Source of the DNA: Leptolyngbya boryana PCC 6306
Lineage (GTDB): Bacteria > Cyanobacteriota > Cyanobacteriia > Leptolyngbyales > Leptolyngbyaceae
Direction: 5' to 3'
NCBI RefSeq assembly: GCF_000353285.1
Contig: NZ_KB731324.1
Span: forward strand, 1,816,577 to 1,880,576
Length of the DNA: 64,000 nt
Shown: piece by piece, positions 33,789 through 43,303 of the stretch
Numbering within the stretch: the first letter of the stretch is position 1
How the letters are laid out: each line of letters begins with the position of its first letter
Position numbers and translations under genes: made by a program
Notes under the pieces: model-generated
Database searches by the model: none
The model's input: only the letters and a program-made list of their open reading frames with translations
What the model was told of the DNA's origin: nothing

Positions 33789-35211
33789 TCGTCCTTGAAA
33801 AACACTATGCGAAATCGTAGAACCTAAGCAGGTTCTACCTCTAGAACCATCACAGCGCGAAACAATTTGCGAAGATTGAACCCGCACCCTGCGAGTAAAG
33901 CATTGAGACTATCGCCAAGCTGCCCTTTGAGATAGTTGCGCCCTAAACAGTGGTCGCTTTTGCTATGTCCAATCACAGGCTCAATGGCACTCCGCCGTTT
34001 GAACAATCGTCGCGCCTTCCCGGTGCGTTTGCGGGTGTCACAGACGAGAACTTCGACATCCTGCGGGTGATGGTCTTTGCCCCGAAATCCCTGATCCACG
34101 GTGGCATGGTTGGGACGAATGTCTGTGAGTCGCTCGACTTGCTCAATGGCGGGAGTGAGAGTGGAGCCATCATACGGGTTGCCATGCTGGGCAGCAATGC
34201 CCACAATCCAATTGCTGGCGTTCGTGGTCGTCAGCACGACTTTGCAGCCAAACTCGTAGGGTTTGTGCGCTTTGCCTTTGGCGATGCACTCGACTTCTGG
34301 AGCGTGAATGCTGTAGCACTTGCCTTTGTCCTGCTTCTGCTGTTGATAGATTCGCTTGGCAGATTTGAGCAAGACCGCAACGGCTTCGGGCATCGGCTTC
34401 AGTTTGCGTTCTAAATCTCGAATCACTCGTCCCAAGTAGGTGCGTAAGATGCGGGTTTGCTTCTGAGCGCGTCGTCCTTGTCGAGCAGCGGCATAGCGAC
34501 TTTGTTTGAGCAATACTTGTTTGCCCACCCGCACGTAAGTTTGTCGCAACTTCACCTGATGTTTTCGGGCCATCCGCACCAGCGTTCGTCTGGCTTTGTC
34601 GTACAACCGCGCATCGGTAGGAAACGCGATGGCTTTCTCTTGCACGGTCGTATCGACAATCACTTGCTTCACATCCTGGGGTGACAATGCCTCGCATTGC
34701 ATGGCGGTCTTGATCACTTGTGACAGCAGTTTTTCCAGTCCATCGACTCCGACTCGTCGTCGCCAGTTCCCTAAACTCGATGGATGACAAGGCAACTGAT
34801 GCTGAAAGGTCTCTTCTCCGCAAAAGTACTGCCAGTATGGGTTTTCCACCCATTTTGCCACGACTGATTCATCGCTCTCGTTGTACAACGCCTTCAGGTA
34901 ATGCAGTCCCACCATCAACCGTACAGGCAATGGCGGTCGCCCTCCGTCGGTGGTCATCGTTGTGCCAAAGTCTTGCTCCAAACTCTCCCAGTCCAGCAGA
35001 TTTGCCAGTTTGAACAACGCATGCTGCGCGTTCAGTTGGGCTTTCAGTTTTGGAGCTTCTGAGCTTGATTTTCCGGATGGTGTTTTCGAGAATCCGGTCA
35101 TGGGTTTTGCAAGATTTTGAACAGTTTGAGTGATTTTCTTGCAATATTATCATTGTTGCTCATTGCTTAGAAGCCTCATCCCGATTACGCTTCTAGGTTT
35201 TTCAAGGACGA
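33789..35211 (-). mobile_element. IS5-family insertion sequence, complete
   Basis: 1423 bases between perfect 15-bp inverted repeats (TCGTCCTTGAAAAAC at 33789; complement ending at 35211). The direct repeat CTAGAAAG flanks both sides (33781-33788, 35212-35219). IS5 elements often target CTAG, which this contains; the exact duplication length is uncertain. It interrupts the integrase remnant. Confidence 0.9.
33824..35101 (-). CDS. IS5-family transposase
   Basis: 425 residues. The N-terminal part has GGRPPLPVRLMVGLHYLKAL and GEETFQHQLPCHPSSLGNWR. The DDE part has VIVDTTVQEKAIAFPTDARL (first Asp), ATVDQGFRGKDHHP (second Asp) and RSAIEPVIGHSKSDHCLGRN (Glu). Basic linker of the long-form IS5 group is present (YAAARQGRRAQKQTRILRT). 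No frameshift is seen. Confidence 0.92.
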   Translation of the reverse strand: MTGFSKTPSGKSSSEAPKLKAQLNAQHALFKLANLLDWESLEQDFGTTMTTDGGRPPLPVRLMVGLHYLKALYNESDESVVAKWVENPYWQYFCGEETFQHQLPCHPSSLGNWRRRVGVDGLEKLLSQVIKTAMQCEALSPQDVKQVIVDTTVQEKAIAFPTDARLYDKARRTLVRMARKHQVKLRQTYVRVGKQVLLKQSRYAAARQGRRAQKQTRILRTYLGRVIRDLERKLKPMPEAVAVLLKSAKRIYQQQKQDKGKCYSIHAPEVECIAKGKAHKPYEFGCKVVLTTTNASNWIVGIAAQHGNPYDGSTLTPAIEQVERLTDIRPNHATVDQGFRGKDHHPQDVEVLVCDTRKRTGKARRLFKRRSAIEPVIGHSKSDHCLGRNYLKGQLGDSLNALLAGCGFNLRKLFRAVMVLEVEPA

Positions 35212-35294: not shown

Positions 35295-35939
35295 ATGATG
35301 TACTATTTTTGGATTGTACTGTTCTTAGGTGTGCAATTATTTTGCTTAGGATTGCTTTGGGTCAGTTGCTTTCCTGGAGCATTAACGGATGTTGAATGGA
35401 GCCTCATTTTGCCATTGTATTGGTTGCTGACAACTCCTCTCGGGATTCTCATCCTGCTGCTGGCGTTTGGGTTTGTGATTTGGTCGCGACGGCGTTGGAA
35501 CAGTCAGATTCGCCCTCCAGCAGAATCATTACCCAAAAGACAACCCAGGCGATTTCTGAAGCAGCTTGTTGTTGTGACCTGTCTTGTTCTGTTTCTTACG
35601 TCTATTTTGATCCGGATCAATCTGCCCCAAACGATCGCATTTTCATTGTCTCGTCCTGCCTTTGATGCTTTTATTGCGGATGAAGCGAAGCTAGTCAAAC
35701 TGTGTCGAGACCTTCTCAAGCCGCAATTAGGGATCTATCAAATCAAAGACTGTGATATCGATTCTCAGGGTGGAATCTATTTACAAACAGGTTGGCATGG
35801 ATTTCTGTTTAATTCTGCCGCTTATGGATTTGTGCATCGACCCAATCCGCATGGAAGCGAGCGTTTTGGAAAAGATATTTATGAGTATCATCCAGTTGTA
35901 GAAGATTGGTATTGGTTTAGGGCATCTCAGGATTGGTAA
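35295..35939 (+). CDS. Membrane protein, paralogue A of a small family
   Basis: 214 residues with three N-terminal helices and a C-terminal soluble domain. The domain has IAFSLSRPAFDAFI, QLGIYQIKD and, at the end, YHPVVEDWYWFRASQDW. The same pattern occurs in the protein at 37160, so the two are paralogues. The last codon region overlaps the start of the LprI-like gene by 7 bases. Function unknown. Confidence 0.7.
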   Translation: MMYYFWIVLFLGVQLFCLGLLWVSCFPGALTDVEWSLILPLYWLLTTPLGILILLLAFGFVIWSRRRWNSQIRPPAESLPKRQPRRFLKQLVVVTCLVLFLTSILIRINLPQTIAFSLSRPAFDAFIADEAKLVKLCRDLLKPQLGIYQIKDCDIDSQGGIYLQTGWHGFLFNSAAYGFVHRPNPHGSERFGKDIYEYHPVVEDWYWFRASQDW

Positions 35940-37147
35940 TCATGATGAAATTTAAAGTTGCGATCGCTGTGAGTGTCGTTTTAGTCGGGAGTCAGCTTGC
36001 GATGGAGCCTATCAAAGCGACTCCTGTACCCAATGCTAAATCTGCTCCTCCTCTACAGCCTCCAGCGGTGGTACTAGGATTTGCTGGAATCGCTCAACTC
36101 GATTGTGTTCAACAACTTGAGGCGGGTGAATATCGCTGTGCGAGGTATTGGGCAGAAGTAACCCATTTGCTCAAATCATCAGTTCATCGGGATGTTGAAT
36201 CACAATTTCCTCCACACCTTCAGCGTCAACTTGCGATCGCAGATCAATCCTGGGCGAAGTTTCAAACTCAACACTGTCAGCAAATGACCCAACGTTTACG
36301 CAATCAGCCAGATTTCCCGCTGGCAATGTCTGTGTGTTTGGCGAAACTGAACAACGATCGCATTTTAGAATTGCAATGGGGAGGGCAGATCATCACCCGC
36401 CAATCTCGTGATCCTCGATTTGAATCCTTACTCGATCAACTCAAGCTGAGAAATTCATCAGTGCAACGCCAGTGGGAGGACTATCGAACTCAGCACTGCC
36501 AAGTAGAAAAAGCGATATTTCCATTCAATAATCTTAGATTGGCGGAATGTCATCAGCGTCTCAGACAGGCTCGATTGGAGCAACTTGAAGACTTTTTTGC
36601 AGCGCCTTCTCGCGGGTTGGATCTTTTTAGAGGTGATGCACTGCCTGGAATTCGGGAGCTAAATTGTGTGGATGGTACGCAGATAGGGTTGAATCGATGC
36701 GCAGTCTATTGGTCACAAATGACTCAGTCGCTGCGATCGCGCATTTTACAAGATTGGCTCAGAAGACTCTCTTGGCAGCATGGGCGAGCATTTAAGAATG
36801 CTGAAATGTTCTGGCAAGACTATCATAGGGCGCACTGTAATGAGTTGGTTGAACCCGTTAAAGAGGGTTCTATGGCACCGATGGTCTATCATCGCTGTCT
36901 TGCAAAGCTGAATAACGATCGCATTGCTGACTTGAAGGGAATCGCTACTTACGAGCCAGACGAGGATGTGCGATCGCAGCTTACACCTCAGCAAGATAAG
37001 ATTCAACAGCTTTGGGATCGTTACCAGGCTGAGTATTGTAAATTTGAATCACAGTTTTTTGGCAATCAAATGAGAACGAAACAATGTCCAACTCGTTTGA
37101 GTAAAGCGCGTTTGCGTCATCTCAAGGAAATGATGAATGTTCGATAG
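35933..37147 (+). CDS. Secreted protein with four LprI-like (DUF1311) units
   Basis: 404 residues with a signal peptide (FKVAIAVSVVLVGSQLAM). The mature part repeats the pattern of lysozyme-inhibitor LprI-like domains: W..F/Y..QHC near the middle and C..KLNNDRI or C..RL..AR at the end. Examples are WAKFQTQHCQQM, WEDYRTQHCQVE, WQDYHRAHCNEL and WDRYQAEYCKFE. The four units are arranged as two similar halves, so an internal duplication is likely. Such domains are helical hairpins tied by disulphides. It overlaps the upstream paralogue gene and is followed after 12 bases by the other. Confidence 0.75.
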   Translation: MVIMMKFKVAIAVSVVLVGSQLAMEPIKATPVPNAKSAPPLQPPAVVLGFAGIAQLDCVQQLEAGEYRCARYWAEVTHLLKSSVHRDVESQFPPHLQRQLAIADQSWAKFQTQHCQQMTQRLRNQPDFPLAMSVCLAKLNNDRILELQWGGQIITRQSRDPRFESLLDQLKLRNSSVQRQWEDYRTQHCQVEKAIFPFNNLRLAECHQRLRQARLEQLEDFFAAPSRGLDLFRGDALPGIRELNCVDGTQIGLNRCAVYWSQMTQSLRSRILQDWLRRLSWQHGRAFKNAEMFWQDYHRAHCNELVEPVKEGSMAPMVYHRCLAKLNNDRIADLKGIATYEPDEDVRSQLTPQQDKIQQLWDRYQAEYCKFESQFFGNQMRTKQCPTRLSKARLRHLKEMMNVR

Positions 37148-37159
37148 GATAACTGAAGA

Positions 37160-37714
37160 ATGCGGCTTCTATTGTTATTTGCCCTTTTTACTTGCAGCTT
37201 GACGCTCGTATTGAGCATCTATCCTGGATTGCTCAATGGATTTGTTGTCTTTGTTGCGATCGCACTTCTCTGGCTGATTCTAATTGGTTGGGTTGCGATA
37301 TCGACGCTTCAAGCATGGCGCAATCAAAGTTCAATGCGCCCAGTGATTGCAATCGCTCTCATGCTTGCTATTTCCTATGGTCTGCTGAAGTTCTACGTGC
37401 CTCGACGGGTTGCTTTTGCATTCTCCCGACCTGCCTTTGAACAGTGGCTTGCGGCGCATCCTGAAAAGCCCCCAGAAGGACGAGAACTGAATTCTAAACT
37501 CGGAATCTATCAGGTTGAGGATTACTTTGCTGGTGATGGGGATGACCACTATTTCCGAACGTATCATCATGGAGATGGCTTAGGGCCAGACACGGTTTCC
37601 TACGGCTTTGCGTATCAACCCAATCTAAAACAAAGCCCGTTGGGTGCGGCTGGATATAAGCTCCATCCATTAGAAGGAAAATGGTCCTGGTTTATAGCTT
37701 CAAACGATTGGTAG
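37160..37714 (+). CDS. Membrane protein, paralogue B of a small family
   Basis: 184 residues. Two or three helices, then VAFAFSRPAFEQWLA, KLGIYQVEDYF, VSYGFAYQPN and the ending WSWFIASNDW, each with a counterpart in the protein at 35295. It is last in a three-gene unit. Its 3' end overlaps the convergent DUF2809 gene by 23 bases. Confidence 0.7.
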   Translation: MRLLLLFALFTCSLTLVLSIYPGLLNGFVVFVAIALLWLILIGWVAISTLQAWRNQSSMRPVIAIALMLAISYGLLKFYVPRRVAFAFSRPAFEQWLAAHPEKPPEGRELNSKLGIYQVEDYFAGDGDDHYFRTYHHGDGLGPDTVSYGFAYQPNLKQSPLGAAGYKLHPLEGKWSWFIASNDW

Positions 37715-38105
37715 TGAGAAGAACGATCGCAATTCCAAGAGTGTAAGCGATCAAATCTCGCCAATCGAAGGTAGATCCGATTGTGAGATGAGCGAGTTCG
37801 GAGTTGCGCCACCCGAGAATATCAATGAGATTCAGGAACTGAAGAAACTCGATTAGGTAAGCAAAAATGAGCGTCCCGATTGCAATTTTCCGAAGTGGAA
37901 CCGCAACAAAAGCATGAACAAAGTAAGCAATCACCATGACGATCAGAACATCTCCTAGCAGCGGTCGAATCCATTCATCTCGAAAGAAGAGGGCAATCAT
38001 CACAACTATTGCAAATAGGATTGCAAACAGGGTGAAAGAACTTTGATTGAATCTCAACCAATTGAGCTTGAGGGATAGTTTTGGCATCAATGGTTCACTG
38101 GGCAT
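37692..38105 (-). CDS. DUF2809 membrane protein
   Basis: 137 residues with four helices. The C-terminal DILGWRNSELAHLTIGSTFD followed by WRDLIAYTLG is the recognisable DUF2809 motif. Members are small inner-membrane proteins of unknown function. The start may be Met 1 or Met 7. Confidence 0.75.
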   Translation of the reverse strand: MPSEPLMPKLSLKLNWLRFNQSSFTLFAILFAIVVMIALFFRDEWIRPLLGDVLIVMVIAYFVHAFVAVPLRKIAIGTLIFAYLIEFLQFLNLIDILGWRNSELAHLTIGSTFDWRDLIAYTLGIAIVLLTTNRLKL

Positions 38106-38187: not shown

Positions 38188-38676
38188 ATGCTGAATGACG
38201 ATCGCATAACTCCTCTCTCAATTGCACTTACCCTTTGGGATATGGGTATTGTTTCCGAGCAATGCCTGATTGCTTGGGCAGACGCTCAGATTTTGGCTCA
38301 AGAGAAACCTGCCTATGATTTGCTAGAGATTGCGACTAAAGGTGCGGCAGTATGCCTCAAACAAGGTGTGATTGAAACGGCTCAAATTTCGCTGAACGAC
38401 TCAGAGGAATTTTTTATTCGAGCTTATTTGTTGGCTCTGGAGTGCGATCGCTCAGCAGAATCTTTCATCATCTGGGCTTCTAGCAACTGCTTCGGGAGTG
38501 CAGAAATTCCTGAAGGCTTACTAGCATATCATTTGGAACATCTCTACTATGATTGTGAGGATGTTGATGCTGCGATCGCATTACTGCGGATTGAACTTCC
38601 AAAGCTCATGCCTCGCTGTGAATCCTTCGCGGCTCCACTTCTAGAGCAAGTTTCAGGGTTAGAGCTGTGTGTTTAA
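38188..38676 (+). CDS. Hypothetical acidic helical protein
   Basis: 162 residues, soluble, acidic and helical (LSIALTLWDMGIVSEQCLIA; EDVDAAIALLRIELPKLMPR). No family recognised. It precedes the 472-residue gene by 15 bases, so they are probably one operon and may act together. Confidence 0.6.
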   Translation: MLNDDRITPLSIALTLWDMGIVSEQCLIAWADAQILAQEKPAYDLLEIATKGAAVCLKQGVIETAQISLNDSEEFFIRAYLLALECDRSAESFIIWASSNCFGSAEIPEGLLAYHLEHLYYDCEDVDAAIALLRIELPKLMPRCESFAAPLLEQVSGLELCV

Positions 38677-38691
38677 TTTTTAGAGATAAGC

Positions 38692-40110
38692 ATGGGAAAA
38701 ACGTTTGTTGTAATCGATGGATACACATTAGCGATCGCACAGAACGATTCTGATGTGTTGTTTTCTGGTCGCCATAGTCGCAGAGCCTTGACTCGATATG
38801 ACGATTCAGCGCTGATTGAGTTTTTGGCGCATCATGCACAGAATGAATCGTTTTGGCAGTGCTTTCAGGCGCATGAAATTTATGAAAATGAGTGCGATTT
38901 TTCAGAACTTAGCGGAGCCAATCACTTCTTGATCAGAGATAGCCAGCAACTGATTCGCGATCACAGTTGGAAATTACCGCAAACTTATCAAAATTGGGCG
39001 ATTTGGGAACTGATTGATCAGCTTCAAGGTCAGTCTTGCAATGAACCGATTTGTTTGTGGCATCCGGGGAGTTTCTATCGGATGTACTGTATTCCCTATC
39101 GCACTGCGTTCAAGATAATGCAGGTTGCTCGAAATTGGGCATGTCTTCCAGCGGTTGAGGGAATTGAAGTTCTGGACGAAATTCAATGGAATGTGCGCTT
39201 TGCATCCTCTGCTAGTTCCGATCAACCCTTGCTTATTCCTCAGATTTTAGATGAGCTTGAGGAAACAGCTAGCCTCTATCTCCTGCTCTTTGAAGATCAG
39301 GCTCGTTTGTATACGCCGAATCAGGTGGAAGGAATTCGATATGAATTGTTGAATCAAATGTCGATCGCGAATCTACTCGATCGCGAACTCTTTACGGAAA
39401 TTCTCGATTGCCTCGCTACTTATCCAAACCTGCAACGCTGTGTAATTCAAGCTGAGAAGCTATGGCGTTATTTAGATTGTGCTTCGGTCAGACAGGACAA
39501 AGACAGTTTGAGTTTAGATTGGATGTTTTTTGATCCGCCTTACCCTGAACCAGGATTTCACAAGCTCTGTTTACAGCAGTTGAAACAAGCAAAATTGCAG
39601 TATCCCCATACGATTCCTTTTGAGGCGTATGGCAAGCAATATCGACTTGTGACGGGTCGTGTGTATCATCATGCGATGACTTTATTGACTGTTTTAGAAA
39701 TTGAAACGCCAGCAGATGCGATCGCGTTATTTGCTAATGTCAATGAACCTACTTACCTGGAGTTAGTCGCTTGGGCTGCGCTTGAATCTTGTTCGTCCCC
39801 GATAGAAGCTTGGGAAATGGTTGTCGATTGGAGGAATCGGGAAGATGAGCTAGCAACTTTGGCAACCGATCCCTCTTTACCAAAAGCTGAGTTTTTTCTG
39901 AATTGTTTATCCTCCCATTTAGCACGACTCTGGCAGAATGGCGATCGTTCTGCATTGAGAAAAGGATTGCAGAGTTTGCACTATCATTTTTCTAAAGAAA
40001 TCTGTTTTCTTTACTGTCGAGGTCAGATGCTCCTCTCTGGAACACTGCCATTTCACTATGCAGAATGGTTTGACGGGGGCTTTCTTCGGCTTTATCAATC
40101 AGAGCATTGA
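38692..40110 (+). CDS. Hypothetical soluble protein
   Basis: 472 residues, no signal peptide or membrane span, rich in aromatic residues and helices. It starts GKTFVVIDGYTLAIAQNDSD and has a long helical C-terminal part (PADAIALFANVNEPTYLELV). I know no match. It is the second gene of the pair with 38188. Confidence 0.6.
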   Translation: MGKTFVVIDGYTLAIAQNDSDVLFSGRHSRRALTRYDDSALIEFLAHHAQNESFWQCFQAHEIYENECDFSELSGANHFLIRDSQQLIRDHSWKLPQTYQNWAIWELIDQLQGQSCNEPICLWHPGSFYRMYCIPYRTAFKIMQVARNWACLPAVEGIEVLDEIQWNVRFASSASSDQPLLIPQILDELEETASLYLLLFEDQARLYTPNQVEGIRYELLNQMSIANLLDRELFTEILDCLATYPNLQRCVIQAEKLWRYLDCASVRQDKDSLSLDWMFFDPPYPEPGFHKLCLQQLKQAKLQYPHTIPFEAYGKQYRLVTGRVYHHAMTLLTVLEIETPADAIALFANVNEPTYLELVAWAALESCSSPIEAWEMVVDWRNREDELATLATDPSLPKAEFFLNCLSSHLARLWQNGDRSALRKGLQSLHYHFSKEICFLYCRGQMLLSGTLPFHYAEWFDGGFLRLYQSEH

Positions 40111-41126: not shown

Positions 41127-41552
41127 ATGTTCTCAAGACTAAGATCGCGATCGCTTCTCTCTATTTTCCCCTTACTAGCCAGCGGAATTTACATCCTGCG
41201 TCCTGCTCCGCCTGAGCCTTGTGAGAGCTTGCGAAAATTTGGTGCGATTGAGCAAGCAGGACGCTGCATCATTAACCGTAGCGTCACCCTAGAAGGCAAT
41301 CTCAAACGACTGCCTGATCGACTCACTATCAAAGGCAATTTAACCATTAGCGGCACGTACATTGAAGACCTTCCCAGTGCAATGATCGTTGAAGGAACCC
41401 TTTTCTTGTACAAAACTAGTATTGCCAAGCTTCCCCCAGACTTGCAGGTTCAAGGAAGCTTCGATCAATATAGCGGATTTGGTTCTCCAGGCGTTAAATG
41501 TAGTGCAATCCCTAAAACTGCTTTCATCAAGGGACATCGGAACTGTCACTAA
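41127..41552 (+). CDS. Small secreted solenoid-like protein
   Basis: 141 residues with an N-terminal hydrophobic segment that may be a signal or anchor (LLSIFPLLASGIYIL). After CESLRKFGAI there is a repeated unit of about 20 residues: LEGNLKRLPDRLTIKGNLTI, SGTYIEDLPSAMIVEGTLFL, and KTSIAKLPPDLQVQGSF. This resembles a short leucine-rich-type solenoid. Role unknown; binding to another protein is the common use. Confidence 0.6.
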   Translation: MFSRLRSRSLLSIFPLLASGIYILRPAPPEPCESLRKFGAIEQAGRCIINRSVTLEGNLKRLPDRLTIKGNLTISGTYIEDLPSAMIVEGTLFLYKTSIAKLPPDLQVQGSFDQYSGFGSPGVKCSAIPKTAFIKGHRNCH

Positions 41553-43009: not shown

Positions 43010-43303
43010 TTACTGAATTTTGATACAGCCGTTCTTGATTTCAATCTTAGAATCGTCTTTGATTTCGACTTTGCCACAAGCAGTTTCAATCGTTGCTTCT
43101 CGACCGCTGCCTTGAATCGTGGCTGCCCCCGTTGTTCTTGCTTCAAATGTGACTTCTTTGTTTGAGCCATCCATGCGAACTTTCATCACATGCTTTTGGG
43201 AGTCTTGATTGGAGTACTTGATGTAAACAGTAGCCACTGACGGCATCGCAAAGGCAACAGTTGGCATGAGCGCAAGTGCTGCAAGAATGAACGTTTTTTT
43301 CAT
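43010..43303 (-). CDS. Small secreted beta-strand protein
   Basis: 97 residues with a clear signal peptide (KKTFILAALALMPTVAFA-M). The mature 78 residues are almost all beta strand (VYIKYSNQDSQKHVMKVRMD; GREATIETACGKVEIKDDSK), with two Cys. Bounded by a strong terminator, so it is a single-gene unit. No family recognised. Confidence 0.7.
   Translation of the reverse strand: MKKTFILAALALMPTVAFAMPSVATVYIKYSNQDSQKHVMKVRMDGSNKEVTFEARTTGAATIQGSGREATIETACGKVEIKDDSKIEIKNGCIKIQ

Follow-up and report, generated by a model that had tools for sequence, protein, structure and literature searches.

Gene content of the locus

In the window, by which we mean the whole 64,000-nt stretch of Leptolyngbya boryana PCC 6306 DNA analyzed here, three genes (A, B and C) follow one another on the plus strand and a fourth (D) points toward them from the minus strand. 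The features referred to below are as follows.

33824-35101, minus strand: transposase (DUF772), directly upstream of the candidate cassette and possibly its left edge
35295-35939, plus strand: gene A, 214 aa, three transmembrane (3-TM) segments and a C-terminal domain predicted to be extracytoplasmic; LprI-linked subfamily
35942-37147, plus strand: gene B, 401 aa, predicted secreted LprI (PF07007) protein with two modules
37160-37714, plus strand: gene C, 184 aa, 3-TM, homologue of A belonging to the other subfamily
37692-38105, minus strand: gene D, DUF2809 (PF10990) membrane protein of the Skillet-Lipocone family, convergent with A-B-C
38188-38676, plus strand: island co-traveller, 162 aa, without a Pfam family; 65-76% identity in Nostocales islands
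38692-40110, plus strand: island co-traveller, 472 aa, without a Pfam family; 69-72% identity in Nostocales islands
41127-41552, plus strand: island co-traveller, 141 aa, without a Pfam family; 78-84% identity
41613-42737, minus strand: island co-traveller, 374 aa; merely 26-29% identity to its island counterparts
43010-43303, minus strand: island co-traveller, 97-aa secreted protein; 70-73% identity in three islands

The three plus-strand reading frames were confirmed as drawn in the initial annotation, and they do nearly touch, as it had described: the stop codon of A (35937-35939) is separated by 2 nt from the ATG of B (35942), and that of B (37145-37147) by 12 nt from the ATG of C (37160). 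Judged by these gaps, the arrangement fits a single A-B-C operon. Scans for promoters and terminators gave scores no better than those of shuffled sequences. The fourth gene, D, had been overlooked; it overlaps the final 23 nt of C on the opposite strand.

All of the genes tested are under purifying selection, with median dN/dS values of 0.16-0.43. There are also signs of decay: the A gene of one genome (G029) is disrupted, and in plasmid2 of Calothrix brevissima (AP018209) an inserted transposase gene splits B in two (L099:24902-27250). Since B or a partner is broken in some relatives, the cassette is dispensable.

The four protein families

B matches PF07007 over three stretches (E 4e-18; 66.2 bits against a cut-off of 22). 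Each of its two modules consists of a full LprI unit with four cysteines followed by a half unit with two, which makes 12 cysteines in total, and the six cysteines of each module are invariant in an alignment of 10 sequences. The two modules align with a score of 232 (shuffles, 32 +/- 5.6); at the level of units, z is 25 when the full units are compared, 14 when the half units are compared, and 1.4 to 6.5 for comparisons of a half with a full unit. The four LprI-like units originally counted are correct if read as two repeats of a full four-cysteine unit plus a half two-cysteine unit. In a tree of B modules the two form separate clades, and as both clades hold members from the window, from genome G261 and from plasmids, the duplication must be older than the split between these three. 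The single module found in G029 falls with the second type, a placement to be taken with the caution due to a long branch.

Export of B is predicted from one feature, a single N-terminal hydrophobic stretch (residues 6-24) behind a lysine-bearing start. The N-terminus carries no lipobox cysteine, and a profile search found no match to the MliC domain in B. Searching the PDB with the B profile returned nothing but 3gi7 (E 0.0075), no relative of B was found in the viral contigs searched, and the structure predicted for B alone reached a pLDDT of 39.5. B resembles the LprI/DUF1311 family (M. tuberculosis LprI, ScwA and T6SS-linked proteins) in its PF07007 profile, predicted secretion and conserved cysteines, but differs from these proteins in having two modules, each with a half unit added to the full one, and in its lack of MliC and lipobox; mycobacterial lysozyme inhibitors of the LprI type, by contrast, combine an MliC domain with a lipoprotein anchor. 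The genomic partners differ as well, being 3-TM and DUF2809 proteins in the case of B and an effector gene in the case of T6SS-linked LprI proteins. Possibly relevant here is a study of Microcystis blooms that names lprI among the two annotated genes present in every 100-um fraction and in no other (PMC12542629).

A and C are 33.6% identical over 125 aa (blastp, E 2.4e-18), and a genome-wide search with A found these two and no other family members in their own genome, so the pattern SRPAF...LGIYQ...W.WF..S.DW that first drew attention to them reflects real homology. Chance similarity is ruled out (E 2e-18). Their description as a paralogous pair holds with regard to homology but not in the sense of a local pair, since they fall in separate clades of the A/C tree. 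The companions of A are proteins from G029 and family f23 (support 95/88), plus one long G261 branch, and those of C are Prado104 (99/97) and, less tightly, the plasmid copies (84/84). C shares 59% identity with a relative at locus L053 and 38-42% with the island copies. By this placement A and C are old subfamilies brought together rather than a fresh duplicate, and a recent local duplication is rejected.

Both A and C have three TM segments, and positive charges predominate in the loop joining TM2 to TM3 (in A, 9 K/R and 1 D/E). The positive-inside rule therefore predicts that the C-terminal ~100 aa, the domain that carries the shared pattern, lie outside the cytoplasm. Neither protein has a significant match in Pfam or NCBIfam, 14 of their relatives have no convincing match in Pfam, and a PDB search with the A/C profile found none; the predicted structure of C with two relatives had a pLDDT of 59.

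D matches PF10990 with an E-value of 5e-25 (88.4 bits against a cut-off of 29.3). The Lipocone superfamily has been described as including DUF2809, under the name 'Skillet-DUF2809', for which enzyme activity on lipid head groups is predicted; the Skillet families for the most part have in common an H2 Asp, an ExxQ motif in H3 and, in H4, an Asp three positions before the canonical one (PMC12419801). D has the H2 Asp, the H3 ExxQ and the H4 Asp pair, and D51, E85-Q88, D113 and D116 (alignment numbering) are invariant in eight sequences, comprising D and seven relatives. The match of D to VanZ (PF04892) is weak and below threshold (18.4 bits against a cut-off of 30.1; E 0.0035), in line with a common Lipocone clade; unlike in VanZ systems, no vancomycin-type resistance genes were recognized near D. 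A PDB search with the DUF2809 profile gave no match. In the published text the associates of DUF2809 are a 6-TM protein and a wHTH regulator, and LprI goes unmentioned (PMC12419801), whereas the partner here is an LprI protein encoded convergently.

Recurrence of the neighborhood and the mobile island

We surveyed 390 genomes of the class and, counting matches of 130 bits or more as close relatives of B, found 21 loci. At 14 of these, D lies within 2 kb of B and is always convergent; the pair loci span three families (f23, f32 and f1), and the B-D gap is 29-125 nt except in the window, where it is 554 nt and is filled by C. At the other seven, B has no D nearby. A D gene placed at random in a 5-Mb genome would be expected within 2 kb of B at less than one locus in a thousand, a figure that should be read with the caveat that the 21 loci are not independent; they do come from f1, f23 and f32, and those of f23 sit in several chromosomal contexts and show two gene orders, A-B-D and B-D-A.

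Genes of the A/C family lie within 2 kb of B at 7/21 loci, always on the same strand. Counting the window, A adjoins B at seven loci in six genomes, in the orders A-B-D and B-D-A, and the occurrence of this adjacency in five other genomes from two families (G029, G083 twice, G166, G196 and G213) argues that the association of A with B is not accidental. In genus g41, B-D and A-B are adjacent between ordinary chromosomal genes, outside the island described below. Of A, C and D, it is D that accompanies B most constantly. The initial annotation had made its proposal depend on the trio being found together elsewhere: the exact A-B-C order was found nowhere outside the window, be it in the 390-genome survey, on plasmids or in the islands of the G261 family, but the wider association recurs. 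A/C-family genes also occur alone, at L053 (the close relative of C), L057 and L058. In G133 (L056:8006-10816), a truncated or frameshifted C-type gene lies ~2 kb from a DUF2809 gene with no LprI gene between them. The family of the 97-aa secreted protein, which closes the window's island on its right side (43010-43303), has a member directly upstream of A-B in G029 (L054:8598-8888).

The segment from about 35.3 to 43.3 kb of the window is a reshuffled copy of an island shared with plasmids. B, D and the genes beginning at 38188, 38692, 41127, 41613 and 43010 recur together in Nostocales, in a different order. The island is carried by plasmids of Aulosira laxa (AP018309, typed conjugative), Nostoc carneum (AP018183) and Calothrix brevissima (AP018208, and AP018209, typed conjugative), and it is present in G261 and 12 other genomes (178 were searched in the G261 family), some of which apparently own these plasmids. 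The B orthologues in G261 and on the plasmids are 66-69% identical to B over the full length, and D is mostly 81-88% identical; for the plasmids, the figures are 67-68% for B and 83-85% for D. Three plasmids, the Nostoc one and the two from Calothrix, carry the convergent B-D pair, as do 10 of 12 other island loci. In 10 of the 13 G261-family genomes, C-type genes are found ~3-12 kb away from B, usually beside a WG-repeat gene. A SUKH-1 (SMI1/KNR4) gene (E 1.8e-7; L098:20904-22145) is also present in the plasmid and G261 islands, along with WG-repeat, MORN-2 and LRR-like proteins. SUKH is a known immunity superfamily; no SUKH gene was recognized within the window.

It should be noted that the 38692-40110 family multiplies in the islands, where one close relative (69-72%) is joined by as many as two distant ones (33-36%). 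On the plasmids and in Nostocales islands, a protein of 210-218 aa with several hydrophobic segments and no Pfam family is encoded ~67 nt upstream of B (L097:18337-18990, L098:29345-29974, L099:27318-27947, and also L102-L105 and L107). A is like this protein, at most a possible homologue, in position and 3-TM topology; comparison of the two with hhalign gave an E-value of 0.0018 but a probability of 15%, and 139 of 2917 shuffles reached the score.

A possible role in the cell envelope

We tentatively propose that A-B-C and the convergent D form a cell-envelope cassette inside a mobile cyanobacterial island, one that probably helps to maintain or protect the cell wall. The sequences themselves show which families the proteins belong to, their topology, the invariant cysteines, the motif in D, the linkage of the genes, purifying selection and carriage on plasmids. 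We prefer a wall role because LprI domains have ties to wall-cutting enzymes and because D is a predicted Lipocone enzyme. ScwA, an LprI-domain protein of Salmonella, controls the lytic enzyme MltD (PMC7933661), and LprI-domain proteins encoded beside peptidoglycan-cutting T6SS effectors are likely immunity proteins (PMC12135965, PMC8867033). In the proposed mechanism, B would reach the periplasm by export, and its LprI modules, rich in disulfides, would bind and restrain enzymes that cut peptidoglycan, whether these are lytic enzymes of the cell itself or come from rivals or grazers. The inner membrane would hold A and C, with their small domain toward the periplasm, as anchors or partners of B; this role is a guess, and the domain matches nothing known. 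D would edit lipid-linked wall precursors, and the four proteins together would harden or tune the wall.

Several observations argue against a cassette. No wall-cutting enzyme or toxin/effector gene was recognized beside it, in the window or at the loci inspected; B and D are convergent and not in one operon, and a third of the B loci have no D; A/C genes can stand alone, and B or a partner is broken in some relatives. Co-location does not prove joint action. That A-D share a function, which enzymes B binds, what D catalyzes and how the cell would gain are all inferences. The initial annotation had envisaged one envelope system with a secreted inhibitor-like part. This view is partly supported by the A-B association; 'inhibitor-like', however, derives from the family name, and ScwA did not alter sensitivity to lysozyme.

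A possible alternative, to which we give somewhat less credence, is that the island is a collection of orphan immunity genes against the toxins of competitors, gathered by mobile elements without the toxins, such that the genes share a locus and not a mechanism. B would then guard the periplasm from wall-cutting toxins, and A, C and D would confer immunity to membrane or wall toxins. The proposed T6SS immunity function of LprI domains, the company of SUKH-1, WG-repeat, MORN-2 and LRR-like proteins on plasmids and in G261, the reshuffled gene order and the patchiness of the genes would all be consistent with this. However, the adjacency of B-D and of A-B on the g41 chromosome suggests a closer tie than hoarding would give, no toxin gene was recognized, the window has no recognized SUKH gene, and the anti-phage defense models of PADLOC gave no match for A-D and four island genes. 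It is less likely that the functional unit is B and D, sometimes with A, and that C came to lie beside B through island reshuffling and has an unrelated task of its own, which would make the trio accidental. The uniqueness of the A-B-C order, the membership of C in the other subfamily, its usual position beside a WG-repeat gene at a distance of 3-12 kb from B, its solitary close relative at L053 and its place within the B-D gap of the window all favor that view, whereas the presence of C and a two-module B within 12 kb on one contig in 10 of the 13 G261-family genomes, and the domain common to A and C, which makes a common task possible, speak against it.

We consider it quite unlikely that B is a true inhibitor of lysozyme-type enzymes from grazers or phages, displayed at the membrane by A and C. 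The family is named after a mycobacterial lysozyme inhibitor and B matches its profile well above the cut-off, but ScwA, with the same domain, leaves lysozyme sensitivity unaffected, and its authors credit the inhibition of lysozyme by LprI to a separate MliC domain (PMC7933661). With neither an MliC match nor a lipobox in B, lysozyme inhibition is doubtful by analogy. We therefore rank the wall cassette first, orphan immunity and an accidental C close behind, and plain lysozyme inhibition lower.

On a wider and rather improbable version of the preferred wall cassette, A and C would be a new family working with an LprI protein and a Lipocone enzyme in a wall-protection system moved between cyanobacteria by conjugative plasmids; the LprI part would act by binding wall-cutting enzymes, and the Lipocone enzyme by altering the supply of their substrate. 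If true, LprI and DUF2809, both of uncertain function, would be linked by their neighborhood across cyanobacterial families and plasmids, a hitherto undescribed family of membrane proteins would join them, and this small set of genes would offer a means of probing the real ligand of the LprI domain and the reaction of the Skillet Lipocone proteins.
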